Below, piece after piece: positions 6,083 through 16,812 of a DNA stretch of 64,000 nt. The notes under the pieces were generated by a model that did not search any database, had not been told where the DNA came from, and saw only the letters and a list, made by a program, of their open reading frames with translations. The number at the start of each line of letters is the position of its first letter. Position 1 is the stretch's first letter. A program made the position numbers and the translations under genes. The stretch is taken from contig JAIUNK010000020.1 of assembly GCA_020161845.1 (NCBI GenBank), positions 16,999-80,998 of the forward strand, in the 5' to 3' direction. Source of the DNA: Actinomycetota bacterium (GTDB taxonomy: Bacteria; Actinomycetota; Actinomycetes; Actinomycetales; Dermatophilaceae).

Positions 6083-7756
6083 TCACAGCTGCTGCGGCGC
6101 GGACACGCCGAGCAGGTCGAGACCGTTGGCCAGCACCTGACGGGTCGCGTCGTTGAGCCACAGGCGGGTCCGGTGCAGGTCGGTCACCGGCTCTGTCACA
6201 CCGTCGAGCACCGCCGGGCGAACGCGGCACTCGTCGTACCACTTGTGATAGCGCGCCGCCAGGTCCTCCAGGTAGCGGGCCACCCGGTGCGGCTCCCGCA
6301 GCGCCGCCGCCTGCGCGACGATCCGCGGGTAGTCGCCCAGGATCGCCAGCAGCGCCGCCTCGGTCTGGTGGGTCAGCAGGGCGGGATCGAACCCGTCCTG
6401 GCGCCGTACGTCGTCGCCGGCGGCCAATCGGGCGACATTGCAGGTGCGGGCATGCGCGTACTGCACATAGAACACCGGGTTGTCGTTGGTGCGGCGCTTC
6501 ATCTCCTCGCTGTCCAGGGACAGCGGGGAATCGGCCGGATAGCGAGCCATCGAGTAGCGCACCGGGTCGGTGCCGATGTCCTCGATGAGATCGGTGAGGT
6601 AGATGGCGTTGCCCTTGCGCTTGCCCATCCGCACCCCCGCGATATTGATGAGCTGCCCGATCAGGACCTCGATATTGACCTCGGGGTCATCGCCGGCGCA
6701 GGCCGCGATGGCCTTCAGGCGGTTGACGTAGCCGTGGTGGTCCGCGCCGAGCATGTAGACCTTCTCCGGGAAGCCGCGATCCTTCTTGCTCAGGTAGTAG
6801 GCGGCGTCGGCGGCAAAATACGTCGGGACGCCGTCGGCGCGGATCAGCACGCGATCCTTGTCGTCGCCGAACGTGGTGGTGCGCAACCAGATCGCGCCGT
6901 CGGCCTCGAACACGTGGCCCTGGGCCCGGAGCCGGTCGATCGCGGCGGCCACCGCACCGGACTCGTGCAGGCTCTTCTCGCTGAACCACACATCGAAACT
7001 CACCCCGAACGCGGTCAGCGTGTCGCGGATGTGCGCCAGCTCCAGCTCATACCCCAGGTCCCGGGCGAGCCCGATGGCCGCGTCGGGATCGGCGACCGCC
7101 AGGTCGAGCAGGTCTGGCTGACGGTCCAGCACCTGCGCGGCGAGGTCGTCGACGTACTCCCCCGGATAGCCCCCCTCCGGCACCTCCGTGCCCGCCGCCT
7201 TGGCGATGATCGAGGCCCCGAATTTGTCCATCTGGGCGCCGGCGTCGTTGATGTAGTACTCGCTGGTGACCGAGGCCCCCGCCGCCGCGAGCAGTCGCCG
7301 CAGCGCGTCGCCGAGCGCCGCCCACCGGGTGTGCCCGATGTGCAGCGGACCGGTGGGGTTGGCGGAGATGAACTCCAGGTTCACGGTATGACCGGCGAGG
7401 GCGTCGCCACGGCCGTACGCCGGGCCGGCCTCGACGATTGTGCGGGCAAGCTCCCCGGCGCTCGCGGCGTCGAGGGTGATGTTGAGGAAGCCCGGACCAG
7501 CGACGTCCGCCCGGGCGATGCCGGGGGTCGCCGCCAGCCGCTGCGCCAACACGCTCGCCAGCTCGCGCGGATTCTGCCCCGCCTTCTTGGCCAGCTGCAT
7601 CGCGACGTTGGTGGACCAATCGCCGTGCGCCAGGTTGCGGGGCCGCTCGACGCGCACGTCGGCCGGTACGGCGTCCGCCGGCAACGGCGTCTGGCCCGCG
7701 GCGACGGCGGCGTGCAGGGCGGCGGTGATGGCTGAGGCGAGCTCGTCGGGTGTCAC
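6083..7756 (-). CDS. argS: Arginyl-tRNA synthetase
   Basis: Class I synthetase that charges tRNA-Arg. The 557 residues carry an N-terminal Add-1 tRNA-elbow domain (about 1-95), the HIGH signature as PTGPLHIGH at 134-142, a KMSKS-like MGKRKGN near 380 and the C-terminal DALR anticodon domain with YVQYAHAR. It heads the pair argS-lysA, a common actinobacterial arrangement. Upstream, tandem repeats and then a tRNA-Arg(CCG) gene on the other strand lie within 330 bp, so enzyme and one of its substrates are neighbours. Confidence 0.96.
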   Translation of the reverse strand: MTPDELASAITAALHAAVAAGQTPLPADAVPADVRVERPRNLAHGDWSTNVAMQLAKKAGQNPRELASVLAQRLAATPGIARADVAGPGFLNITLDAASAGELARTIVEAGPAYGRGDALAGHTVNLEFISANPTGPLHIGHTRWAALGDALRRLLAAAGASVTSEYYINDAGAQMDKFGASIIAKAAGTEVPEGGYPGEYVDDLAAQVLDRQPDLLDLAVADPDAAIGLARDLGYELELAHIRDTLTAFGVSFDVWFSEKSLHESGAVAAAIDRLRAQGHVFEADGAIWLRTTTFGDDKDRVLIRADGVPTYFAADAAYYLSKKDRGFPEKVYMLGADHHGYVNRLKAIAACAGDDPEVNIEVLIGQLINIAGVRMGKRKGNAIYLTDLIEDIGTDPVRYSMARYPADSPLSLDSEEMKRRTNDNPVFYVQYAHARTCNVARLAAGDDVRRQDGFDPALLTHQTEAALLAILGDYPRIVAQAAALREPHRVARYLEDLAARYHKWYDECRVRPAVLDGVTEPVTDLHRTRLWLNDATRQVLANGLDLLGVSAPQQL

Positions 7757-7800
7757 CTGGGCATTCTATGAAGCCGGAGCCCACCCCCAGAGCGCCGCCC

Positions 7801-7884
7801 GCGTCCCTGGACACCCCGCCCGCGTCCCACGCCACGCCACCTGCGTCCCTGGACACCCCGCCCGCGTCCCACGCCACGCCGCCC
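7801..7884. repeat. 42-bp tandem repeat, two copies, upstream of argS
   Basis: The unit starting gcgtccctggacaccccgcc occupies 7801-7842 and 7843-7884 with a single-base-level difference at the join (gcc/acct). Each unit itself contains two similar halves (gcgtccctgg, gcgtcccacg). It lies 45 bp upstream of the argS start, where the argS promoter would be expected. Confidence 0.8.
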
Positions 7885-7969
7885 GGCCCTCGACACTCCG
7901 AACGGAGCGTGGGTGGGGTCCAGACCCCCACAACACACCGATCGGAGCACCGAGGCCGGCGAGGGCGGC

Positions 7970-8019
7970 GACCAGCTGGTTCCTGGCCCCGGCCGACCAG
8001 CTGGTTCCTCGCCCCGGCC
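7970..8019. repeat. 25-bp tandem repeat, two copies, upstream of tRNA-Arg
   Basis: gaccagctggttcct followed by (g/c)gccccggcc is present at 7970-7994 and 7995-8019, and a degenerate third start (accgacctgg) follows. It lies 65 bp before the tRNA-Arg gene, in its probable promoter region. No gene is seen in 7757-8084. Confidence 0.8.
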
Positions 8020-8084
8020 ACCGACCTGGTAGCGTCTCCCCCGGCGCTGTGAGCCCTCCGCCAGGAGGTCTCCGGTGGCGACCA

Positions 8085-8156
8085 GCCCCCGTAGCTCAGG
8101 GGATAGAGCACCGCCCTCCGGAGGCGGGAGCGCAGGTTCGAATCCTGCCGGGGGCG
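8085..8156 (+). tRNA. tRNA-Arg (anticodon CCG)
   Basis: A full cloverleaf can be drawn: acceptor GCCCCCG/CGGGGGC, D stem GCTC/GAGC, anticodon stem CCGCC/GGCGG with loop CTCCGGA (anticodon CCG, reads CGG), four-base variable loop, T stem GCAGG/CCTGC with loop TTCGAAT, discriminator G. The 3' half is the integration site of the element to the right. After the discriminator the sequence is now CCC A; the displaced original continuation at 16811-16813 is CCA. Confidence 0.96.
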
Positions 8157-8158
8157 CC
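8133..8158 (+). other. attL core of the integrated element
   Basis: The 26-bp sequence starting caggttcgaatcctgcc, covering the T arm, acceptor 3' strand and discriminator of tRNA-Arg, is repeated exactly at 16787-16812. It is the left junction of a tyrosine-recombinase-integrated element; the integrase gene lies next to the other copy. Confidence 0.92.
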
Positions 8159-8164
8159 CACGAA

Positions 8165-8205
8165 AAAGGCCACCTGACCAGCGGAAACGCGATCAGGTGG
8201 CCTTT
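8165..8205 (+). terminator. Terminator just inside the element, after tRNA-Arg
   Basis: A perfect 13-bp stem, aaaggccacctga (8165-8177) with tcaggtggccttt (8193-8205), and a 15-base loop. It lies eight bases beyond the attL core, so it is supplied by the element and can end tRNA-Arg transcription after integration. Confidence 0.8.
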
Positions 8206-8223
8206 CGCGTGCACTCCACGTGC
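8206..8223. repeat. Candidate integrase arm site, left (pairs with 16649-16666)
   Basis: cgcgtgcactccacgtgc here and cgcgtgcactctacgtgc at 16649-16666 differ in one of 18 bases and have the same orientation. In the excised circle they would lie on opposite sides of the core, 47 bp to one side and 120 bp to the other, as integrase arm-type sites do. Confidence 0.55.
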
Positions 8224-8252
8224 ACCAGCCACCCTCGACCGAGGGGGTCAAA

Positions 8253-8561
8253 ATGAACACCACCACCACACCGTCCGTCGCCGACGAGGTCGTCGACCGC
8301 CTCGCCGCGATGATCGAATCCTGCGGCCTGGACGTCGACGAGGTCGCCGCCCGAGCCGGCCTGACCACCACCGTGCTGAGTCGGATCCTGGCCAGCCCGA
8401 GCCGGCTGACCGTCAACCAACTCGGGGCACTGGCCGACGCGCTCGGCCTATCGGTCGCGGCGTTGATCGGAGCCAGCCCGGACCCTTACGGCGAGCCGGC
8501 CACCCGTTGCGGGGTCATCGGCTGCCCGGATCCGTCCCACCAGTTGTCCGGGGCGTGGTGA
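8253..8561 (+). CDS. XRE-type HTH regulator of the element
   Basis: A 102-residue protein with a Cro/CI-type helix-turn-helix at about 15-62: VDEVAARAGLTTTVLSRILA, then LTVNQLGALADALGLSVAALIG. The ATG at 8253 was chosen because a GAGGGGG ribosome site lies just upstream; an earlier ATG at 8220 has none. It is the leftmost gene of the element and faces the structural operon, so it is a reasonable candidate for the repressor of excision or of the minus-strand genes. The C-terminal part (TRCGVIGCPDPSH) has two cysteines and no recognised function. Confidence 0.75.
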   Translation: MNTTTTPSVADEVVDRLAAMIESCGLDVDEVAARAGLTTTVLSRILASPSRLTVNQLGALADALGLSVAALIGASPDPYGEPATRCGVIGCPDPSHQLSGAW

Positions 8562-8617
8562 CCATGAGACCCCACCAGCCAGAAACAGAATCCACCCAAC
8601 CGAGGAAGGCATCCACC

Positions 8618-8815
8618 ATGCACACCATCGACACAGCCAAGTACATCGTCGCCAGCGCCCTTGGGTCTGCTGGCGACCGCCTCCGCAATGCCGGCGCCCG
8701 CGTTCACCACTCGGTCCCCGTCGCAGTCCGGACCGAGGACGTCACTCGGGCCGCAGTAGCGGCCTGGCATATCGGCGTGCGAGACGGGCGCCGCGTGACC
8801 ACTGGCCGGGCCTAG
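8618..8815 (+). CDS. Small hypothetical protein of the element
   Basis: A 65-residue protein starting MHTIDTAKYIVASALGSAGD, with a strong GAGGAAGG ribosome site eight to nine bases before the ATG. An earlier in-frame ATG at 8564 is possible, but it lies only two bases after the stop of the HTH gene and has no separate ribosome site. It probably shares a transcript with the XRE-type gene. The family is not recognised. It has a basic C-terminus (RDGRRVTTGRA) and no membrane segment. The stop at 8813-8815 is followed by about 50 bp before the transposase remnant. Confidence 0.5.
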   Translation: MHTIDTAKYIVASALGSAGDRLRNAGARVHHSVPVAVRTEDVTRAAVAAWHIGVRDGRRVTTGRA

Positions 8816-8871
8816 GGGGCGCGCCAGGGGGGGGCGTTCTTGATTCGGTTGGGGTGGTTTGGACCTGGGCG

Positions 8872-9166
8872 TTATGCGATCAGTTCGAGGAAGCGGTGCA
8901 GCTCGGCGTCGGCGGCCAGCACCATCCGCCGCAACGTCGAGATCGCCGGCCCGCCCGGACCTGGCCCGATCCGCGACAAGACCGATCGGGGCAGGTCGGC
9001 GATCCACTGGGCGGCCGCAGCGTAGGAGGTCACCCCCGCACAGGCCGCCGCGATCGATGCCGTCAATACAGCCGCGAAACCGATAACGGCCGGCCCTGCG
9101 CACGACGGGGATCAGGGGGGCGTGCACACTCGGAAGCCGATCCATTTCTGAGCAGTCGAGAGCCAC
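8872..9166 (-). pseudogene. Remnant of an ISAs1-like transposase N-terminus
   Basis: The frame ending at 8872 reads TASIAAACAGVTSYAAAAQW then IADLPRSVLSRIG and ISTLRRMVLAADAEL, matching by eye the N-terminal pattern of ISAs1/H-repeat transposases (alanine-rich helix, A-x-W-A-D-L-P, then a T-x-R-R helix). The upstream part (IPVVRRAGRYRF) is in another frame, so there is a frameshift near 9070. The DDE catalytic region is missing. It lies inside the element, suggesting an old insertion that was later deleted. 9167-9366 holds no gene I can support. Confidence 0.5.
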
Positions 9167-9366
9167 TCGTGACCAGTTTTGCGCGTCATTCTGGCCCCCT
9201 TCGGATTTGCTGTGTAGAGAAAGTGGCTAATCCCCGTGGTCCTTGGTTGTTGCATGGTGGGGGACTCCCCCCTGGTCGTGGGGGTGGTGGTTGTCGCTTT
9301 CGTTGCATTGTTAGTCGATGGTTGCTGAGCGTTTGATTACTGCGGCGAACGCGCGAGAGAACAAGC

Positions 9367-9415
9367 AAAGCCAGAGCGAGGCACGAGCCCTAACGTCGTG
9401 CCTCGCTCTGGCTTT
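9367..9415 (-). terminator. Strong terminator after the capsid gene
   Basis: A perfect 20-bp stem: 9367-9386 (aaagccagagcgaggcacga) with 9396-9415 and a nine-base loop, ending in TTT on both strands. It starts 13 bases beyond the capsid stop codon and probably ends the element's long minus-strand operon. Confidence 0.9.
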
Positions 9416-9428
9416 GGGACTTTGCGAA

Positions 9429-10277
9429 CTAGTCGGCGGCAACCGTCAGCTTGACAATACGGCTCGGTCGGACGGCCGCCCAGCCGATGCGCCACGTTGC
9501 TCGGATCGCGATAGCGTCATTGGCGAAGAATGCATGGTCAGACCGGTCGAGATGCAGCTGGCCGTACGCCGAAACGACTTCGGACTTGTCGATGACGATA
9601 GCCTTGCCCACTGTGACTGAGGGATGCACGGTGACGGGAAGGCCGCCAAGGATCCGCTCTGCGCCGTTGTGGGCGTCCGCGAGCAGGGACACGTTGGAAC
9701 CGGTCCCCATGGGAATGCGTGCGAGCTTCGCCCAGTCGAGCGGATTCATGAGCAGGTTGGTTGCCTGGCCGCCATCGTTCTCGATAGCGGCGATGGCGTC
9801 ATACAGGGCGTAGATATCGGGGCCCACGGATCCGCCGATATCCCCGCCGGCAACGATGCCGGCCGTGGTGAGCAGGCCGGCGGGACCGGATGCATTCGAG
9901 AGGAACGCCTGATCGGCCTTCCGAACGATGGAACGTCGCATCGAGTTGACGATCCGGGTCGCAGCCTGCGGCTGTTCGAGCACTTCGCGGGCGAACGTGG
10001 AGAGCACGGACACCTTGTGCGTGTCGATTGCGACCTGGTCATAGGCGCCGGCCGTGACCGGAATCGGTGCACCCTCGGCGATGAAGTCTGCCGCCGCGTC
10101 GGTTTTGACGTAGGGCACGAGGACGCGCGGCGCGTCGCCTTCAATCTCCCCCGCTCGGGAAGTGCAGGTGATGATCAGTGCTTCGGGGATCTGGTCGTCG
10201 GGGTCGAATGTCGAGACGACATTCGGGCGCCATCCCTCGGGAATCTGAGGCGTGGTGGCAGGGCTAGTAATGGGCAT
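9429..10277 (-). CDS. HK97-type phage major capsid protein
   Basis: A 282-residue shell protein. The fold's usual landmarks are visible: an N-terminal arm, the P-domain stretch FIAEGAPIPVTAGAYDQVAI, the long spine helix after TFAREVLEQ (IVNSMRRSIVRKADQAFL), LLMNPLDWAKLARI, GLPVTVHPSV and a C-terminal DHAFFANDAIAIRATWRIG strand. It lacks the long N-terminal delta domain of HK97 itself, and no prohead protease is encoded nearby, so a separate scaffold is likely; the two upstream genes are candidates. The ATG follows an AGAAAGG site. It is the last gene before a strong terminator. No portal, terminase or tail gene accompanies it. Confidence 0.88.
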   Translation of the reverse strand: MPITSPATTPQIPEGWRPNVVSTFDPDDQIPEALIITCTSRAGEIEGDAPRVLVPYVKTDAAADFIAEGAPIPVTAGAYDQVAIDTHKVSVLSTFAREVLEQPQAATRIVNSMRRSIVRKADQAFLSNASGPAGLLTTAGIVAGGDIGGSVGPDIYALYDAIAAIENDGGQATNLLMNPLDWAKLARIPMGTGSNVSLLADAHNGAERILGGLPVTVHPSVTVGKAIVIDKSEVVSAYGQLHLDRSDHAFFANDAIAIRATWRIGWAAVRPSRIVKLTVAAD

Positions 10278-10358
10278 TTGTTCTGGGGCCTTTCTCGGGG
10301 CTAAGTGTGTTTTCTGTCTGAGCGGAGGATCTACCTTCTACGCTCTTCGGCCCCCGGG

Positions 10359-10414
10359 CCTGTCCTCGGGTGCTGAGGCGACGCCTGGCCGCTTCTTCAC
10401 CACCCGAGGACAGG
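10359..10414 (-). terminator. Inverted repeat between the small scaffold-like gene and the capsid gene
   Basis: A perfect 14-bp stem, cctgtcctcgggtg (10359-10372) with cacccgaggacagg (10401-10414), and a 28-base loop. No T-run follows. It could be a partial terminator or an RNA-processing hairpin that sets the ratio of capsid to upstream proteins. Confidence 0.55.
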
Positions 10415-10441
10415 ATAGCGCAATATGGACGCGTTCCGCCA

Positions 10442-10750
10442 CTACTTCCGGGCTAGCCCGTATTCTCCGACCACGCGGTCGACGATTGCGGAAACCTTCT
10501 CAGGGTCAACGGCGCATTCGCTATCGAGGACGTCGCTCAATCTGACGCCGAGTTTCCACATTGCTGCTGGATTCTTCAGGTCGGCATGGCCCTCCGCGAC
10601 CCCGGTGAGGGACTCGCTGAGGAGGCTGAGGAGGACCTTTTCCTCATCGTAGAGCGCTAGGAGATGCCGCAGGCATCTCTTAGCATGTTCACGCTTTGCG
10701 ATCAAGATAGCGCCCTGATCAGCGGCAGTCATTCGCACCGTTGCTTCCAT
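10442..10750 (-). CDS. Small scaffold-like protein of the element
   Basis: A 102-residue, mostly helical protein. The N-terminal half (GAILIAKREHAKRCLRHLLA) looks like a coiled coil. The C-terminal half (PAAMWKLGVRLSDVLDSE, then VDPEKVSAIV and VGEYGL) matches the C-terminal half of the next upstream gene product (PSALWALGASVTDALDDD, VDPAKAAALG, AEQYGL). The ATG is preceded by AAGGGAA at good spacing. Its place between that protein and the capsid gene suggests a role in capsid assembly or size control; this is inference from context only. Confidence 0.7.
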   Translation of the reverse strand: MEATVRMTAADQGAILIAKREHAKRCLRHLLALYDEEKVLLSLLSESLTGVAEGHADLKNPAAMWKLGVRLSDVLDSECAVDPEKVSAIVDRVVGEYGLARK

Positions 10751-10786
10751 GACCGGATTCCCTTCTTTTGTTTGAGATTTTCGTTT

Positions 10787-11338
10787 TCAGCCGCGGCCCA
10801 TCACAATATCTTCGGGTCGAGCCGCGGCTGATCCACCGTCGCCGGGATGCATGCCCTCCAGCGGGGCGTAGCAGCCGCGCGGGGGCTGCAGGCCGTACTG
10901 CTCGGCGTACCGCTGGCCCAACGCGGCAGCCTTGGCCGGGTCGACGTTGCCGTCGTCGTCCAGGGCGTCCGTGACGGAGGCGCCCAGCGCCCAAAGCGCG
11001 CTGGGCGTACGCAGGCGGGTGTGCCGCTCGACCTCGCGTTGCTGGGCCACTGTGAGCCGTTCTGCGAGGCTGTCGCGCTCGACCTCTACCTCCCGCAGCC
11101 GGCGCCGGTACTTGGCCGCCTCGCGGCCTGCTGGCTCCGTCTCTGGGGCTACTTCCAGCTCGGCCCCTGGCGCTACCTCGGGCTCGGTCTCTGGCACCAC
11201 CTCGGGCTCGGTCTCTGGCACCACCTCGGGCTCGGTCTCTGGCGCTGCGTCTGCCGCCTCCCGGTCGGCCGTCGCCGTGTCGGCCGCCTCCGCGGCAGCT
11301 TCGGCCGCCGCTTCCTTTTCACTGTTTCGCTCCTGCAT
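10787..11338 (-). CDS. Putative capsid scaffolding protein with acidic repeats
   Basis: A 183-residue protein. The N-terminus is alanine/glutamate-rich, followed by an acidic PETEPEV repeat (about residues 34-70), a charged coiled coil (KYRRRLREVEVERDSLAERL) and a C-terminal domain shared with the 10442-10750 product. Acidic tail, coiled coil and position upstream of a capsid gene are typical of phage scaffolding proteins. The ATG at 11338 is preferred over the GTG two codons earlier because AAGGGAG lies nine bases before it. It begins 29 bases after the WhiB-like gene, probably in the same operon. Confidence 0.7.
   Translation of the reverse strand: MQERNSEKEAAAEAAAEAADTATADREAADAAPETEPEVVPETEPEVVPETEPEVAPGAELEVAPETEPAGREAAKYRRRLREVEVERDSLAERLTVAQQREVERHTRLRTPSALWALGASVTDALDDDGNVDPAKAAALGQRYAEQYGLQPPRGCYAPLEGMHPGDGGSAAARPEDIVMGRG
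11129..11248. repeat. 24-bp tandem repeat inside the scaffold-like gene
   Basis: ctcgggctcggtctctggc recurs at 11177, 11201 and 11225 with exact 24-bp spacing; two degenerate units precede (from 11129). On the coding strand this gives the eight-residue PETEPEVV repeat. Copy number can change by slippage without shifting the frame. Confidence 0.85.
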
Positions 11339-11367
11339 TTTCACGTGCTCCCTTTTCGTCGGGTTAT

Positions 11368-11664
11368 CTAATTTGCATTGCGTTTCTTGCGTGCTATCGG
11401 AGTTTGGTCAACACCTCCCCACACATGCCAGCCCTCATTGGCGAGGGCCGCGTATTCTGCGCACTCGATCAGCGCCGGGCATTCGGCGCAAGCCGCGACC
11501 GCGCGAGCCCTGCGCAGTACAGAGGTCGACGTCCAATCCTCAGAATCCTTCCCGCGGCATGGAACAGCGCCGAAGGCGCCGGCAATTGCTGCCGCGAGCC
11601 GAAGAGACGAACTGGCCGCCGCGCGCGACAACTGCGACTCTGAGTAGAGGGGCTGGGCGCTCAT
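11368..11664 (-). CDS. WhiB-like iron-sulfur regulator of the element
   Basis: A 98-residue protein with the four cysteines of a WhiB-type [4Fe-4S] cluster: C36, C59, C62 and C68 in the spacing C-x22-C-x2-C-x5-C (VPCRG ... CAECPALIEC), followed by the WHVWGGVD turn that matches the family G[VI]WGG loop and a basic tail (ARKKRNAN) for DNA binding. The ATG at 11664 overlaps the stop of the primase gene (ATGA), so the two are translationally coupled. WhiB-like proteins bind sigma factors or DNA; actinophages often carry one. It probably controls element or host genes. Confidence 0.82.
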   Translation of the reverse strand: MSAQPLYSESQLSRAAASSSLRLAAAIAGAFGAVPCRGKDSEDWTSTSVLRRARAVAACAECPALIECAEYAALANEGWHVWGGVDQTPIARKKRNAN

Positions 11665-14006
11665 ACGCTCACCACCCCCCGCCCACCAGAGGGGCATGAT
11701 GGGTGGGTCGCATGGCCCTCGGAAACGCTTAGGTCGTCGAGTGCCAGACCGCAGGAGCCGCACAGTGGTGCCGGTCGTGCCTTACGTCCGGGCGTTGGCG
11801 CGACTGGCACGACTGGCACGACTGTGGATGAGCTGGGCAGTTGTGCCCCAATACATACAGTTGTGCCATCTCCCCTAGACGTAGGCTCGACTGAGGCATG
11901 ACTGGGAGGTTCCGGACTGCTCTCCGCGGGAAGTTCCCAGTAGGTGACCCTTGGGTAGCCCGTCGACCTCGACGTCAGCCGCAGCCTTTCGCGGGCGCGT
12001 TGTATGGTTCTTTCGCTGTGTCCGGCCTTGCGCCCCTCGTTCTTGACGTCAATTGACCTGGCAATGCCGCCGTTCGTCTCCAGGTAGTCTCGCACCCAGC
12101 CCGCCGCTTCGGATACGGCCGATCGCTCGTCGTCAGTTGCGTTTGCACGCTTCATGCAATCGCTAATGGACTGGCCCGAAATACTCTCCCCCCATTCGAT
12201 CCTGCCCGTGTAAATCGGACCATCGGAGGTGTCTACTCGGTGGGAAGCGACCGTGTATGCGAGCGTTGGCAGATTGGCACGGCCCAGGTTGTTCTTTGGC
12301 GTCCCGAAGAGGCATCGGTTTTCGTCGTCAGGGTCAACAATGCATGTGTGCACCGAGCGAGCCACCGCCGTAAAGGCGCGGGATCCAGTGACCAAGTGCA
12401 ATGGGTCAGAGCTGCCCGACTTGTTGTGGTGGATCAGGCCGAGGATTGCGAAGCCGCACCGATCCGCGATGCGAACGATTGGCTCAAGGCCCTTTCGTAC
12501 CTCCGCGTCTCGGTGCGTGTCGAGTTCCCCGAGGCGTGATGTGAGCGGGTCGAAGAGGAGGAGGGCGGCGCCGACGTCTAACGCGTGCTTTTCAAGCTCC
12601 GAATTGTCTCGTGGCAACATTAGTCCTACGGGATCGTCGTTACTGTTGGTAACGTCGATGCGAAACACCTTGTCAAGGTCCGCGTTTGCCGCGATCAGCC
12701 TGGGGACAATCGTGTGTTCCCAACTGTCTTCCATCGCTGACACCAAGACTGCCCCCGGCTGTCCGAGTCGGTCGCCGGGCAACTCCCCGCGTGTCACGCG
12801 CGCTGCCAGCCAGTAGGCCAGCGTCGACTTCCCGATACCTTCACGGCCAGACAGGAGCCCCATCGTGGCAAGCGCTAGCCGGCCTTCCCATAGCCAACGG
12901 ACCGGACGTGGCGTGAACGCGGATGCCGGGGTAAGGGTTACCGTTCGGCCGGCGCCGCGTGCCACGTCCGACTTCGCCGCGCCGCCGCCCCCCATGGTCG
13001 GCTCGGCGGCCTCCAGCTCGGCCAGCGACTCTGCGAGAGAATCTGGCATCGGCGCGGGGCCACGTCGATGCCACTGGTCCCGCCACTTGTTGACTGCTGT
13101 GCACGCGCGGATCTGCTCAGGTAGCACCGAGTCGTACGCCGCGGCGCCGTCCTGCTCGGTCCAGGGCGTCCAGCTCGCGCGTGTGAGTCGGCCGAGCCTG
13201 TTGGCCAGGTCCGCGCAGCACTTTTCCCACCCGCGCCCCTGCTGGTCGCGGTGCCCCTCGGACCATATGGCAATCTCGGCGAACCGGGCGCTCTCGTCCG
13301 CGACGACCTGAGCAAGGTACGCCTCGATACGGCCCCTCTGGGCCTCGCTGAGCGCCGACCACGCGGGCGCGAGCCCCTCGGAAGGGATCGACGCCTGCGG
13401 CGCCCTCTTGGCGTCCACGCGAGCTTTCAGTGTGCCCGTCGAGTCGTCTGGCCCGTCGAGCGCAACCAGGTCCGGCTCATTGACCCATTCGTAGGCGGCC
13501 AGGTTTCCTGTCGACTTCGACAGCTTGACCGTGGGCGCGATCCAGATGAAGCCGTGCCCCCGCCCAGCGGCCCCGGCCTTCAGGTCCAGCCCTTGGTCTA
13601 CGCCGTCCATGGATCGACACCCAGTGGCCGCGATCAGGTCATGCCACCCACCCGAAGGCGTGAGCTGCCGGCCGTACGACGTCGGCCACACCCCAGCACC
13701 CCCCCATTGGTGGGCTGTGGCGTCCCCTCCATTTCTGGGGTCGACGTCGAGGCAGTCGACCGGGCCCGGGGCGCCCATCACGGCAGCGAGGGCGTCGCCC
13801 GGCCGCCACGTGTCGACGACGGCCGGGTCTGGGGTGGTGGCCTGCCAGCCGGCGGGCAGCACGTAGCCGGATTGGCCACTGCCGCCTTTCGGGTCCCACT
13901 GGCCGTCCGCTCCGAGCGCGGGGTGGGCGATGAAGATCGGGATTCCGCGGGCGGCGAGCCGGCGGGCCGTTGTGAGCGCTGAGGCTGTCTTTTCAGGTGA
14001 GGTCAT
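11661..14006 (-). CDS. Primase-polymerase / RepA-type helicase replication protein
   Basis: A 781-residue fusion. The N-terminal bifunctional primase-polymerase domain (about 10-200) shows the metal-binding DVD motif (CLDVDPRNGG, 85-94) and the GGWHDL motif (119-124). A RecA-like AAA_25 ATPase follows with Walker A GREGIGKST (387-395), a Walker B-like ALLLFDPLTS near 480 and GLIHHNKSGS. The region around 640-700 is a helix-turn-helix (HSERTIQRARERL), and the C-terminus has a CGSC...HPSC zinc-knuckle pattern. Such proteins start replication of satellites and integrative plasmids, so the element probably replicates by itself after excision. It overlaps both neighbours by four bases. Confidence 0.85.
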   Translation of the reverse strand: MTSPEKTASALTTARRLAARGIPIFIAHPALGADGQWDPKGGSGQSGYVLPAGWQATTPDPAVVDTWRPGDALAAVMGAPGPVDCLDVDPRNGGDATAHQWGGAGVWPTSYGRQLTPSGGWHDLIAATGCRSMDGVDQGLDLKAGAAGRGHGFIWIAPTVKLSKSTGNLAAYEWVNEPDLVALDGPDDSTGTLKARVDAKRAPQASIPSEGLAPAWSALSEAQRGRIEAYLAQVVADESARFAEIAIWSEGHRDQQGRGWEKCCADLANRLGRLTRASWTPWTEQDGAAAYDSVLPEQIRACTAVNKWRDQWHRRGPAPMPDSLAESLAELEAAEPTMGGGGAAKSDVARGAGRTVTLTPASAFTPRPVRWLWEGRLALATMGLLSGREGIGKSTLAYWLAARVTRGELPGDRLGQPGAVLVSAMEDSWEHTIVPRLIAANADLDKVFRIDVTNSNDDPVGLMLPRDNSELEKHALDVGAALLLFDPLTSRLGELDTHRDAEVRKGLEPIVRIADRCGFAILGLIHHNKSGSSDPLHLVTGSRAFTAVARSVHTCIVDPDDENRCLFGTPKNNLGRANLPTLAYTVASHRVDTSDGPIYTGRIEWGESISGQSISDCMKRANATDDERSAVSEAAGWVRDYLETNGGIARSIDVKNEGRKAGHSERTIQRARERLRLTSRSTGYPRVTYWELPAESSPEPPSHASVEPTSRGDGTTVCIGAQLPSSSTVVPVVPVAPTPGRKARPAPLCGSCGLALDDLSVSEGHATHPSCPSGGRGVVSV

Positions 14007-14368
14007 GACGACTCACCAGAAATCGCCATAGCCGCATCGAACGCCGCACTGACGGTCGTGTAGTCGCGCCAGTCGTGCCCTGAAAACTGCTCGGCCCGAA
14101 TGATGGCAACGGCATGTGGCGCGCCCCGCTTAGCTGCTGCAACGACTGCTCGCTCCGCGGCGGCCAGAGTGAGGAAGATCCTTCTATGCCACTGCCCATT
14201 TCCTCGTCTTACGGAAACCTGCAGGGCCAGTGAGGGGCGCGTCGTATGGGTTGTTGCGGCGCCCGTAGGGACGCGGCTAGCCTGTGAATCGGAGTTCCCA
14301 CTTCGTCGCGTTTCGTCCGGGGTCGGGCCGCCTTCTCCTGAGGCGGCCCGATTTCGCGTTTTGGTCAT
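14003..14368 (-). CDS. Hypothetical protein of the element
   Basis: A 121-residue protein with a polar N-terminus and a folded part from about 45: LALQVSVRRGNGQWHRRIFL, then ERAVVAAAKRGAPHAVAIIR and FSGHDWRDYTTVSAAFDAAM. The family is not recognised. Its stop overlaps the primase start (ATGA) and its start lies three bases after the excisionase-like gene, so it is part of the replication/excision operon. The tightly conserved arrangement, not the sequence, suggests a role in replication control. Confidence 0.65.
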   Translation of the reverse strand: MTKTRNRAASGEGGPTPDETRRSGNSDSQASRVPTGAATTHTTRPSLALQVSVRRGNGQWHRRIFLTLAAAERAVVAAAKRGAPHAVAIIRAEQFSGHDWRDYTTVSAAFDAAMAISGESS

Positions 14369-14371
14369 CGC

Positions 14372-14572
14372 TCACTGGCCCCCTAGGATCGGGGTGAGCA
14401 TGCGGTCAATCTCGCGAGCGTCGTACCTGAGTAGTCTCGGACCCATGCGCATTGCCCGGAGGTCGCCCCTAGACGCCATCCGACGAACCGTGATTACAGA
14501 GACGCCTAGGTATTCGGCTACCTGTTCTTGTGAAAGCCAGCGGCGTTCGGTTTTGACATGTGCGCCGCTCAT
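14372..14572 (-). CDS. Excisionase-like HTH protein
   Basis: A 66-residue winged-helix (HTH_17/AlpA-type) protein: WLSQEQVAEYLGVSVITVRR, then GDLRAMRMGPRLLRYDAREI. Such proteins act as recombination directionality factors or as activators of integrase and replication genes in actinobacterial elements. The ATG at 14572 overlaps the stop of the small upstream ORF (ATGA), which favours it over the ATG three codons earlier (MCTMSGAH). The following gene starts after three bases. Confidence 0.8.
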   Translation of the reverse strand: MSGAHVKTERRWLSQEQVAEYLGVSVITVRRMASRGDLRAMRMGPRLLRYDAREIDRMLTPILGGQ

Positions 14573-14775
14573 AGTGCACACGCTTCCGTCAGTCGGCCAG
14601 CGGTCCTTGCGTCGTCTCGCAGCGTCGCGCCCCGGCAGGACGGCCGCGCACCGACGTGCGTCCCACCCTGGGAGGTTTTCGCTTGACTAACCTCGGTGCG
14701 CGATTGCTCGACTCTGCGATTAAGGCCCAGAGCGAGGCGTCGGCGCACTGACGCCCGATGGCTGAAATTGGGCAT
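14569..14775 (-). CDS. Small basic hypothetical protein coupled to the excisionase-like gene
   Basis: A 68-residue frame starting MPNFSHRASVRRRLALGLNR, rich in arginine. Support for a real gene is a good ribosome site (GAAAGGTGATC) just before the ATG and the ATGA overlap with the next gene. Against it, the composition is what any GC-rich frame could give, and no family is recognised. It could be a leader ORF whose translation controls the excisionase-like gene. Confidence 0.4.
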   Translation of the reverse strand: MPNFSHRASVRRRLALGLNRRVEQSRTEVSQAKTSQGGTHVGARPSCRGATLRDDARTAGRLTEACAL

Positions 14776-14903
14776 GGTAGATCACCTTTCGTGATGAAAG
14801 GCGACCCGCCCTGCAGTCGCGTTCACCGGACGCGTCCGGCACGTTGGCCCGAAGTGGGCACCGCTGAGGCTTGTTCTTGAGTTGGCTTACTGATGTCGTG
14901 CTT

Positions 14904-15182
14904 CTATGCGACCCTGACTTTCCACTCTGGTCGTAATCCGTCATTAAGGACTGGCCTCGATAGCGCTATCTTGATATCAGCGCGGAGGGATTCAATTTCC
15001 GGCACTGTGCCACACTCGCACGGGTCCCGATGCGCCCTCTTGTCATCCCAGTACGCCGTTAGAATCGCGGCGTCGACATTGCTGGTGTCCGACACACATA
15101 GCCTTCCACGGATATGCCCGCAGAGTTTGCAACGAGCCACGATTACCGGCTCTGGTGCAGTGAATTGTTCCCACATAATCAT
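14904..15182 (-). CDS. Zinc-ribbon-like small protein of the element
   Basis: A 92-residue protein with CKLCGHIRG near residue 18 and HRDPCECG near 52. Two CxxC/CxC knuckles are spaced as in a zinc ribbon, with a helical C-terminus (IESLRADIKIAL). The ATG at 15182 is preceded by AAGGAA. It lies between the integrase and the excision/replication operon. The family is not recognised; in such elements small zinc proteins are often DNA-binding or anti-host factors. 15183-15403 has no gene I can support. Confidence 0.55.
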   Translation of the reverse strand: MIMWEQFTAPEPVIVARCKLCGHIRGRLCVSDTSNVDAAILTAYWDDKRAHRDPCECGTVPEIESLRADIKIALSRPVLNDGLRPEWKVRVA

Positions 15183-15403
15183 CGCTTTCGAAGTTCCTTA
15201 GGTTCCGCTTGTGTCCGTTCCGCGCATGCGCCCGGGCCGAGCGATCGCGCCTCCTCCATAGTCACCTTAGACTAACGTAAATGTCAACCCCCCGCCCCCG
15301 GGCCCGCCGGCCCCGGCTCGGCGAGTCCGAAGTTCAGGGGCTCATGCCTCCAAGGTCCAGTTCGGAGAGGCGCGCTTAGAAATCGTGGCCGTCGGATGGT
15401 GCG

Positions 15404-15497
15404 TTCTTAATGTCGACTAGTTTTCGCGGGTTCTTAATGTCAACTAGTCTTCGTGCGTTATTAATGTCGACTAGTTTTCGTGCGTTCTTAATGTCGA
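15404..15497. repeat. 27-bp tandem repeat at the integrase 3' end
   Basis: Units start with ttcttaatgtcgactagtt at 15404, 15431 (caactagtc variant), 15458 (ttattaatg variant) and a partial one at 15485, with exact 27-bp spacing. The integrase stop codon is inside the third unit. The repeat is AT-richer than its surroundings. Without spacers it is not a CRISPR; iteron-like replication sites or protein-binding sites are possible. Confidence 0.88.
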
Positions 15498-16622
15498 GGT
15501 TCCGTTCGCAAGTTTCGACATGGCCGCAGCGATCGCGGCGTCCCGTCCTTGCGCAGCGTGCTGGTAGCGGAGGGCTGCCGCTGGGGTACTGTGCCCCACC
15601 CGAGCCATCAGCTCGGCGAGCGTGGCGCCCGTCTGCGCCGCCCAGGTCGCCCCCGTATGGCGCAGATCGTGCAACCTCAGATCGGGCCGCCCTGCCGCCT
15701 CCCGGGCCCGGGCGTAGGCCTTGGTGGTCTCCGTATGGCTCAAGTGCCGGTTCCCCTCGCGGGCGAACAGCAGTGCGTTGCCGGCGCGGCCGACGTACTC
15801 CACCAGGTGTCGTTCGACGTCGGGAATCAGGTGCGGCGGGATCGCGACCGTCCGGCGACCCGCAGCGCTCTTCGGCGGCCCCACCAGATCCTCACCGTTG
15901 ACCCGCACGACGGCCCTGTCGACGCGGACGGTGCCCTTCTCGACGTCAATGTCCCGGCGCCGCAGCTCGGCCAGCTCGCCGTACCGCATCCCGCACCAGG
16001 CAGCGAGCAGCACGAACAGCCGCAGCCGGCCCGGGACGATGGCCTCAGCGATCGCCTGGACCTCCGCCGGCGTGGCCGTGCTGATGTCGCGGACGCGGCG
16101 GGTTGTCCCAGCGCCTCGGATCTTGGCCGGGTTCTCCCGGAGCAGTCCCTCATCGACGGCCTGGCCGAGCAGGGTCCGCAGGAGGCTGTAAGCGTGGGCT
16201 CGTTGGGTCGGCTTGCCGGCCGGCAGGTTGTCGTGCCAGCGCCGTACGACCTCGCCCGTGATCCCCCGCAGGGGCAGCTCTCCGAGCCCGGGCAGGACGA
16301 GGCGGTCGAGCTGGGAGCGGTACAGCGCCAGCGTCCGGGGGCGCAAGGGCTGTCCCCTAACGCGGCGACGCTCCAGGGCGCCGGGGGCGTATTGCACAAG
16401 CGTCGCGCCGTGGGTAGCGACCCGCCGCGCGGCTGGCGGGCGCCATTCGTCTCGCTCGATCAGGCGGCGCTCTGCGGCCAACCACGCCTCGCCGTCGATC
16501 TTGACTGTGAAGGTCTCGGGCGCTAAATGGCGCAGCCCGTCCGGGCCGGAGTAGTACGCCTGCCAGCGGCCGGACGGCAGTTTGCGGAGCCCGCCGAAGC
16601 CTCTCCTGCGCCGTGCTGGCAT
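15471..16622 (-). CDS. int: Tyrosine-recombinase integrase
   Basis: A 383-residue site-specific recombinase that integrates and excises the element at tRNA-Arg. An N-terminal arm-binding part (RGFGGLRKLPSGRWQAYY) is followed by a core-binding SAM-like domain (about 75-165) and a catalytic domain with R213 (GMRYGEL), K251, H318-x-x-R321 (LHDLRHTG), H344 (VGHST) and nucleophile Y353 (ALRYQH); all catalytic residues are present. The ATG at 16622 lies 165 bp from the attR core. The last codons lie in a 27-bp repeat, so the C-terminal tail TSTLRTHEN is repeat-derived. Confidence 0.95.
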   Translation of the reverse strand: MPARRRRGFGGLRKLPSGRWQAYYSGPDGLRHLAPETFTVKIDGEAWLAAERRLIERDEWRPPAARRVATHGATLVQYAPGALERRRVRGQPLRPRTLALYRSQLDRLVLPGLGELPLRGITGEVVRRWHDNLPAGKPTQRAHAYSLLRTLLGQAVDEGLLRENPAKIRGAGTTRRVRDISTATPAEVQAIAEAIVPGRLRLFVLLAAWCGMRYGELAELRRRDIDVEKGTVRVDRAVVRVNGEDLVGPPKSAAGRRTVAIPPHLIPDVERHLVEYVGRAGNALLFAREGNRHLSHTETTKAYARAREAAGRPDLRLHDLRHTGATWAAQTGATLAELMARVGHSTPAAALRYQHAAQGRDAAIAAAMSKLANGTSTLRTHEN

Positions 16623-16648
16623 GATCCTGTCGCCATCCTGTCGGGAAT

Positions 16649-16666
16649 CGCGTGCACTCTACGTGC
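16649..16666. repeat. Candidate integrase arm site, right
   Basis: cgcgtgcactctacgtgc, the partner of 8206-8223 with one difference. It lies just upstream of the integrase start and 120 bp before the attR core, so it could also let integrase regulate its own promoter. Confidence 0.55.
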
Positions 16667-16786
16667 GCTAAGCGAGTCTATACGAGAGTGTCTAAGTTGA
16701 GTTATGATAGCCGGGCGAAGTGACAACATCGCTGTTCAGACCCTTAATTGTGCTGGCTGCCGTCGCGGGGCCGAATCTGGAAAGCA

Positions 16787-16812
16787 CAGGTTCGAATCCT
16801 GCCGGGGGCGCC
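16787..16812 (+). other. attR core of the integrated element
   Basis: An exact copy of the 26 bp at 8133-8158 (tRNA-Arg T arm to discriminator), followed by acc, so the original tRNA gene encoded its CCA end. Host sequence continues to the right. Confidence 0.92.

Follow-up and report, generated by a model that had tools for sequence, protein, structure and literature searches.

An integrated actinobacterial element with scaffold and capsid genes and no portal or large terminase gene, a candidate shell-only phage satellite

The phage satellites in the published accounts consulted here either reshape the capsid of a helper phage or bring a full head-and-packaging gene set of their own (PMC10690885, PMC12409344, PMC5644958; these papers and the following one are represented here by excerpts). 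The candidate phage-inducible chromosomal islands (PICIs) of Mycobacterium, phiRv1 and phiRv2 included, have by definition integration machinery and a major capsid gene within a phage-like region; some lie at tRNA genes with a tyrosine integrase, and some carry replication, terminase or scaffold genes (PMC10654092). That account is confined to Mycobacterium, and the excerpts of it do not take up the lack of portal and large terminase genes. We analyzed a stretch of 64,000 nucleotides (nt), called here the window, from an actinobacterium of the Dermatophilaceae (contig JAIUNK010000020.1, positions 16,999 to 80,998; genome G000, 4.39 Mb). It contains an element with the integration gene and major capsid gene that define the Mycobacterium candidates, in a host other than Mycobacterium. 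We estimate a probability of roughly two in three that this element is an integrated satellite that builds its own shell and borrows the portal, motor and tail of a helper phage.

The insert of approximately 8.7 kb lies between tRNA-Arg(ccg) at 8085-8158 and a duplicate of the tRNA 3' end at 16783-16812. Direct comparison of the two attachment sites showed that 29 of 30 bases were the same, the final 26 being identical; the repeat begins at 8129, not at 8133 as given by an earlier note made from the sequence alone. In two of three other genomes of the same genus (L053 and L054), argS, tRNA-Arg(ccg) and the right-hand gene adjoin without any insert, and no tRNA was detected at the corresponding place in the third. 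The GC content is 65.3% in the element and 71.6% in the remaining window, and none of the nine minus-strand frames is interrupted between start and stop. The element is integrated and intact. Its principal features are as follows (aa, amino acids).

8129-8158, no strand: attL, the 3' end of tRNA-Arg(ccg), from the repeat comparison and the empty site in L053 and L054
16783-16812, no strand: attR, 29 of 30 bases identical to attL
15471-16622, minus strand: tyrosine integrase, 383 aa (PF00589, E 3.5e-19; PHROG integrase, 3.4e-57)
14372-14581, minus strand: HTH_17 excisionase-like protein, 69 aa, GTG start (PF12728, E 1.1e-10; phrog_66 excisionase, 5.6e-9)
11661-14006, minus strand: replication protein with AAA_25 helicase domain, 781 aa (PF13481, E 6.9e-25; phrog_10729, E 2.5e-44, residues 354-696)
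11368-11664, minus strand: WhiB-like regulator, 98 aa from the ATG at 11664, in a reading frame that opens at 11763 (PF02467, E 1e-7)
10787-11344, minus strand: scaffold protein, 185 aa, aligning with its relatives (scaffold profile, E 6.8e-42, of which it is itself a row)
10442-10750, minus strand: short second scaffold-like protein, 102 aa (positions 87-135 only of the 167 in the scaffold profile, E 2.2e-10)
10278-10441, minus strand: intergenic leader of 164 nt with a long hairpin, 5' of the capsid gene
9429-10277, minus strand: HK97-fold major capsid protein, 282 aa (PF05065 Phage_capsid, E 3.3e-24)
9366-9416, no strand: perfect 21-bp inverted repeat with a 9-nt loop, terminator-like, after the capsid gene

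The integrase, excisionase-like protein, WhiB-like regulator, HK97-type capsid and two scaffold-like proteins claimed by the earlier note all agreed with these searches; the scaffold profile had been built from 21 scaffolds with the 102-aa protein excluded, and recognized it. The alignment shows that the C-terminal tail retained by the other scaffolds is absent from this short protein. The claimed primase-polymerase/helicase was borne out in its helicase half. As a primase-polymerase the 781-aa protein was not confirmed, since PF09250 gave no match at the replication locus at E up to 1, and the region behind the PHROG label 'DNA polymerase/primase', residues 354-696, is the helicase half; a PDB sequence search with the N-terminal 350 aa returned seven matches, weak and unrelated. 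The 4-nt overlaps described between genes were present at two junctions (p121/replication gene and replication gene/WhiB), while the claim of a gap-free operon did not hold, as the other six minus-strand junctions have gaps of 288, 322, 3, 23, 36 and 164 nt, the last preceding the capsid gene. The perfect inverted repeat after that gene was found as described; it was absent from the output of a terminator scan, which has a loop limit of 8.

No portal, protease or tail family was recognized beyond chance-level listings when the 10 proteins of the element were compared with Pfam and PHROGs. The sole terminase listing was a small-terminase PHROG on the 69-aa helix-turn-helix (HTH) protein (E 0.0014), below the excisionase match of the same protein (5.6e-9). 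These results agreed with the gene absences asserted earlier. The phiRv elements presumably differ in carrying a protease. The structure predicted for the capsid protein from a 17-row alignment had a pLDDT (a per-residue confidence score) of 78.4, and a PDB fold search with this model placed D3, phiXacJX1 and HK97 at the top, with SaPI1 among the best 50 of 671 matches. The element thus has the form of a phage satellite in the general sense, being small and integrated and having an integrase, a regulator and a replication gene without a full virion set; the portal, terminase and tail genes of an intact prophage were not found in it.

Capsid relatives were sought in three sets. Matches were present in 13 of the 186 genomes of the family, the element's own genome included, and of 396 genomes taken from the order, 42 matched a 17-row capsid profile. 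For contigs of named genomes, the window capsid alone confirmed nothing, and a five-row alignment query gave 16 capsid loci, in Mycobacterium, Leucobacter, Xylanimicrobium, Knoellia, Brevibacterium, Flaviflexus, Propionibacterium and Rhodococcus. The closest capsids were 44% identical to that of the window within the family and 46% elsewhere, both from satellite-like elements. By mapping these loci, we obtained 42 distinct actinobacterial elements, the window element and 41 others, that have a related capsid but neither portal nor large terminase subunit (TerL) and are here termed shell-only; among the intact capsid loci mapped in the three sets, 42 were shell-only versus 2 that were not. Their sources were the 16 named-genome loci, 20 of the 25 best order-scan places and 10 stretches that together include 11 of the 15 places in the family; of the other four, one was the window itself and three were the weakest. 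The five order-scan places left out were the window, two duplicates of loci in the set, and G290 and G329, which have stops. Dropped from the count were L033 (the same locus as L017), L069 (the contig of L034), L084 (capsid reaching the contig end and not called), L020 (broken capsid), L024 and a second element in L028 (both with portal and TerL), and L026 (WillG, counted apart).

The usual order in these elements was an integrase at one end, a replication-type gene, small genes, a scaffold and the capsid. An integrase was found in 39 of the 42, the exceptions (L034, L077 and L078) being contig ends or short contigs, and scaffolds were recognized in 37 (36 of the 41 tabulated elements, and L034). 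The distance from integrase to capsid end was 4.9-9.3 kb in the 38 elements measured. The ends of L039, L074, L075, L079 and L087 are not fixed, because the integrase lies downstream of the capsid in L039 and more than 7 kb away in the others. Genes of the relatives were called with a home-made program that misses short genes. Among 52 large neighborhood proteins, host genes included, there were 17 with AAA_25, 4 with DUF3987, 3 with DUF3631, 3 with D5_N and 3 with Prim-Pol, in tallies covering the best 25 of 36 Pfam and the best 25 of 46 PHROG families. The replication-type families vary between elements while the scaffold-capsid pair persists, and the 42 elements, whose integrases and replication genes are not alike, span at least eight families. 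The window element conforms to this set in having an integrase, a replication gene and a scaffold before the capsid, and no TerL or portal.

The absence of portal and TerL rests mainly on genome scans and protein searches, because the neighborhood tallies list only part of the families. Protein searches of the 42 elements with the portal and TerL of phage Christian, L024 and the L028 neighbor gave no match inside the elements. Whole-genome Pfam scans covered every genome concerned. In the first 21, the only ones scanned with PF04860, they detected PF04860 in 2, PF05133 in 6 and PF03354 in 5; in a further 19 genomes, PF03354 and PF05133 were each detected in 2. Judged by contig number or length, or by position, these portal and TerL matches lie away from all 42 elements, except in L028, where they belong to a separate neighboring element; those in G061 are those of L024. 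In L028 (4733-19948, Mycobacterium sp. ENV421), the shell-only element adjoins an oppositely oriented one with capsid, scaffold, portal and TerL.

Some relatives carry additional genes. A head-tail adaptor was found in L028, L029, L040 and perhaps L085, a small terminase subunit (TerS) in L035, L081, L087, L088 and perhaps L086, and an HNH gene in L017, L019, L028, L077, L078 and perhaps L039. WhiB occurred in the window element, in L018, in L017 by motif and weakly in L037, and is an optional extra in shell-only elements. The earlier suggestion that an actinobacterial capsid satellite with a WhiB-type regulator would be new was accordingly narrowed, since the combination of integrase and capsid is already published for Mycobacterium (PMC10654092, in excerpt). 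A single reading frame in L037 (7923-8687) combines a weak WhiB match (E 0.0055) with a scaffold-like stretch after it (E 3.7e-8). The shell-only element of Knoellia koreensis (L017) encodes, at 7331-8017, a 228-aa protein that is tail-fibre-like by eye, and the one in L016 (14382-17455) has a serine recombinase and, by eye, apparently interrupts a comM-like gene.

A first capsid tree, with 46 rows, placed the capsid of WillG and 41 of the 42 shell-only ones on one side of a branch with support 93/90, just below the starred level of the tree program. The placement of the remaining one, L025, outside with Christian, is unsure because both are on long branches. Three capsids accompanied by portal and TerL stood apart, a clustering that, with three alone, is not beyond chance (101 of 500 shuffles were as low). 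A second tree added two more capsids located beside portal and TerL, those of G188:C58 and G193:C30, the latter grouping with L024 and the L028 neighbor. The branch of the window's capsid (27 rows, support 100/97) contained shell-only elements alone among those examined, and a sister branch also contained the WillG group and one capsid beside portal and TerL. Against 50,697 phage records, the window capsid gave 31 matches, to 20 Arthrobacter phages (about 26% identity) and 11 members of the WillG group (31.6%). The capsid of L018 had one match there and that of L027 none, that of L023 had 24 (12 in the WillG group and 12 partial), and that of WillG had 110, of which 98 were below 60% identity, mostly Streptococcus phages over 64% of the length. 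The window scaffold matched no phage record at E 0.01, plasmid records contained no capsid match, and a scan of IMG/VR with A1 gave five weak relatives.

A conserved folding leader before the capsid gene is also new here. When WillG was considered with 41 elements, the gap 5' of the capsid gene was 100-205 nt in 36 of the 42, and the gene preceding it was the scaffold in 33 of these 36; in two full phages checked, the gaps were 46 and 31 nt. The leaders fold beyond shuffled sequence, with a mean z of -4.4 (26 of 36 below -3 and 30 below -2), and the control of 72 capsid-coding windows from the same loci gave a mean z of -0.28 (4 below -2, none below -3). Such a leader is present in most of L016-L042 and L070-L088, and that of the window is weaker (z -2.7). 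Seven sequences were picked because their first hairpins were alike; in these, 6 of 11 pairs had two-sided changes, and two outer pairs failed in three of the seven; the second half of seven leaders gave 10 pairs, two with such changes. An RNA alignment of 11 whole leaders had 14 pairs, 8 of them with two-sided changes, but the covariation term was unfavorable (+0.25). Rfam had no family at the window leader and none at gathering level for L016-L018 and L027-L029. Of 37 gaps, 20 had a GGTAnnnT motif, -10-like by eye, in their first 70 nt.

The WillG group comprises 12 records of 10.87-11.08 kb (GenBank OR387110-OR387121), deposited as phages of Mycolicibacterium aichiense (WillG, Anya and others), with capsid and tape measure in common. 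The annotation of WillG (OR387121, L026) includes TerS, Ad1, Hc1, a serine integrase, a replication-initiator-like protein, scaffold, capsid and a 651-aa tape measure, and none of the 17 genes in this one record is named portal or tail tube. Its 97-aa 'terminase' is a small subunit by PHROG, in a search of 10 of the 17 proteins. We read WillG as a satellite, its gene set being too poor for a phage. Compared with phage Herbertwm, Ad1 is 49% and Hc1 45% identical, and the tape measure (8075-10030) is 63% identical over the first 350 residues and has 651 aa versus 807 overall, possibly a shortening of the tail by the satellite; the capsid is unlike that of Herbertwm (23% over 109 residues). Herbertwm, a Fromanvirus, was isolated on M. 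aichiense ATCC 27280 in Williamsburg, and WillG was likewise isolated on M. aichiense in the same town. Five integrated or contig relatives of WillG (L104-L108) have several of these genes in common with it, the tape measure only in L105, and gave no match to TerL, portal or protease of Herbertwm. As the shell stays apart and the interface genes appear phage-like, the WillG branch supports, without proving, travel in particles.

The WillG capsid had a match in 141 of 396 genomes of the genus of G186, the best at 92%, and no identical capsid was observed in this set, within which M. aichiense could not be singled out; three loci, G188:C58 and G193:C30 were examined at length. At L109 (G188:C58:134295-138767), a capsid of the WillG branch lies beside TerL and portal, possibly a full-head relative or the source of the WillG-type capsid. 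No paper on M. aichiense mini-phages was found in the open-licence library searched. With a Herbertwm-like phage as a plausible type of helper, the WillG group is a possible test system.

The satellite nature of the window element follows from its gene set and the recurrence of that set, and the construction of a shell with a borrowed portal, motor and tail fits best because the scaffold-capsid pair is kept without portal or TerL in 42 elements. In the proposed cycle, the integrase and the HTH protein would excise the element, and its own AAA_25 replication protein would replicate it. An active helper phage would induce expression of WhiB, the scaffold or scaffolds and the element's own HK97-fold capsid protein, and would contribute portal, large terminase, connectors, tail and lysis, on which the satellite would depend. 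Satellite DNA would then be packaged in a chimeric assembly of satellite-made shell and helper portal, the particle probably being sized for the 8.7-kb genome or a concatemer.

The explanation that comes next is that the satellite's capsid and scaffold or scaffolds mix with or poison the assembly of the helper capsid, shrinking heads or blocking yield, like the SaPI scaffold mimic CpmB. The short second scaffold matches the scaffold profile in one part only, just as CpmB has a C-terminal motif of the phage scaffold (PMC5644958, in excerpt), and the element has no portal gene to start a separate shell. However, that short protein is without the C-terminal tail of other scaffolds despite its resemblance to CpmB, and of the 41 tabulated elements, L037 and the window element alone had more than one scaffold match. 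Moreover, unless the helper is an unsampled phage, direct co-assembly with its capsid is improbable, because the window capsid is just 26-32% identical to the phage capsids found in the collection. We regard this explanation as unlikely.

A decaying prophage remnant with a capsid gene kept by chance is far less probable still. Deletion could leave capsid-only remnants, and some related capsids are broken; yet the nine minus-strand genes, the site and the repeats are intact here, and a similar, non-random subset of genes is found in 42 elements from at least eight families with differing integrases and replication genes, a conservation that disfavors this reading. The earlier note had held that a capsid nearly copied from a full prophage, or a gene set confined to one genome, would speak against a functional satellite. 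The phage matches were at 26-32% and a related gene set occurred in 41 other elements, so that its satellite reading is supported by capsid divergence and the recurring gene set. The least credible alternative, a domesticated encapsulin-like nanocompartment or host gene-transfer shell, would explain a shell protein without portal or terminase, but the capsid belongs to an integrated element that also has an integrase and a replication gene, and is preceded by a scaffold, no cargo gene was recognized, and the fold search disfavors it, with phage, gene transfer agent and SaPI1 capsids and no encapsulin among the best 50 of 671 PDB matches.

Several observations weigh against a satellite that builds a shell for a helper's portal and motor. 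The genome G000 had no match to PF04860, PF05133 or PF03354, so that no resident helper prophage is recognizable by these three Pfam families. A portal-less shell would require the helper portal to fit a foreign capsid, and the window element has no recognized TerS, adaptor or HNH with which to redirect packaging. The replication gene was not assigned in several of the 42 elements, and decayed capsid copies exist, that of G120 (L020) being split into two frames and those of G290, G329, G379 and G496 having in-frame stops. The capsid of G188:C58 falls inside the WillG branch with support 100/99; the wider capsid group is therefore not exclusive to shell-only elements, and the idea that the whole group is satellite-only was dropped. 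Finally, neither excised circles nor particles or induction were observed, and the element has no known helper.

Beyond this locus, we tentatively propose, at somewhat less than even odds, a widespread actinobacterial shell-only class. Its members would assemble their own shell and scaffold on the portal, motor and tail of unrelated helpers; the capsid lineage would be exclusive to them in the window's branch, the leader would set capsid output, and relatives deposited as 10.9-11.1-kb phages would add connectors and a shortened tape measure. If true, such a class would mean that unrelated phages can be combined across the portal-to-shell interface, and it would explain many capsid-bearing 'remnants' in actinobacteria.

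The remaining features of the window element are the following.

8253-8561, plus strand: XRE-type repressor-like gene, 102 aa (HTH_3, E 8.3e-7; phage repressor PHROGs), the start being that of the gene caller and the frame open from 8220
14003-14368, minus strand: 121-aa protein (p121) without a confident Pfam or PHROG match
14904-15182, minus strand: 92-aa Cys-rich protein, zinc-ribbon-like by eye, without a Pfam match
15399-15497, no strand: 27-bp tandem repeat of 3.7 copies, spanning the integrase 3' end

The 27-bp repeat may be an origin or sites for Xis or a regulator. No comparable array was located at the integrase 3' end in 18 other elements run through TRF; L028 and L029 have tandem arrays of 21-36 bp elsewhere in the element.

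Compared with known systems, the element resembles the Staphylococcus aureus pathogenicity islands (SaPIs) and P4 (CpmA/B, Sid) in being a small satellite with scaffold-like proteins that act on a shell. Those satellites redirect, and resize, the capsid protein of the helper and encode none (PMC10690885, PMC12409344, PMC5644958, in excerpt), whereas the window element carries its own capsid gene. Capsid-forming PICIs (cf-PICIs) likewise have their own capsid and take tails from a helper, but they encode capsid, protease, portal, connectors and both terminases (PMC10690885, in excerpt), of which the window element, with scaffold and capsid only, lacks the portal, protease, connectors and both terminases. 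The Streptomyces satellites MulchRoom and MiniFlayer are also actinobacterial and have their own capsid and scaffold, and MulchRoom has an integrase, but both encode a portal and both terminases (same source). The WillG group has a related capsid (31.6%) and a scaffold, and WillG itself encodes an integrase, with none of its genes named portal or large terminase; it differs in its serine integrase, in the added TerS, Ad1, Hc1 and 651-aa tape measure, and in having been deposited as a phage. No account of a satellite class with scaffold and capsid alone was found in the open-licence library searched. Candidates with integrase and capsid are already published for Mycobacterium (PMC10654092, in excerpt), and what is new here is the shell-only gene set as a conserved strategy.

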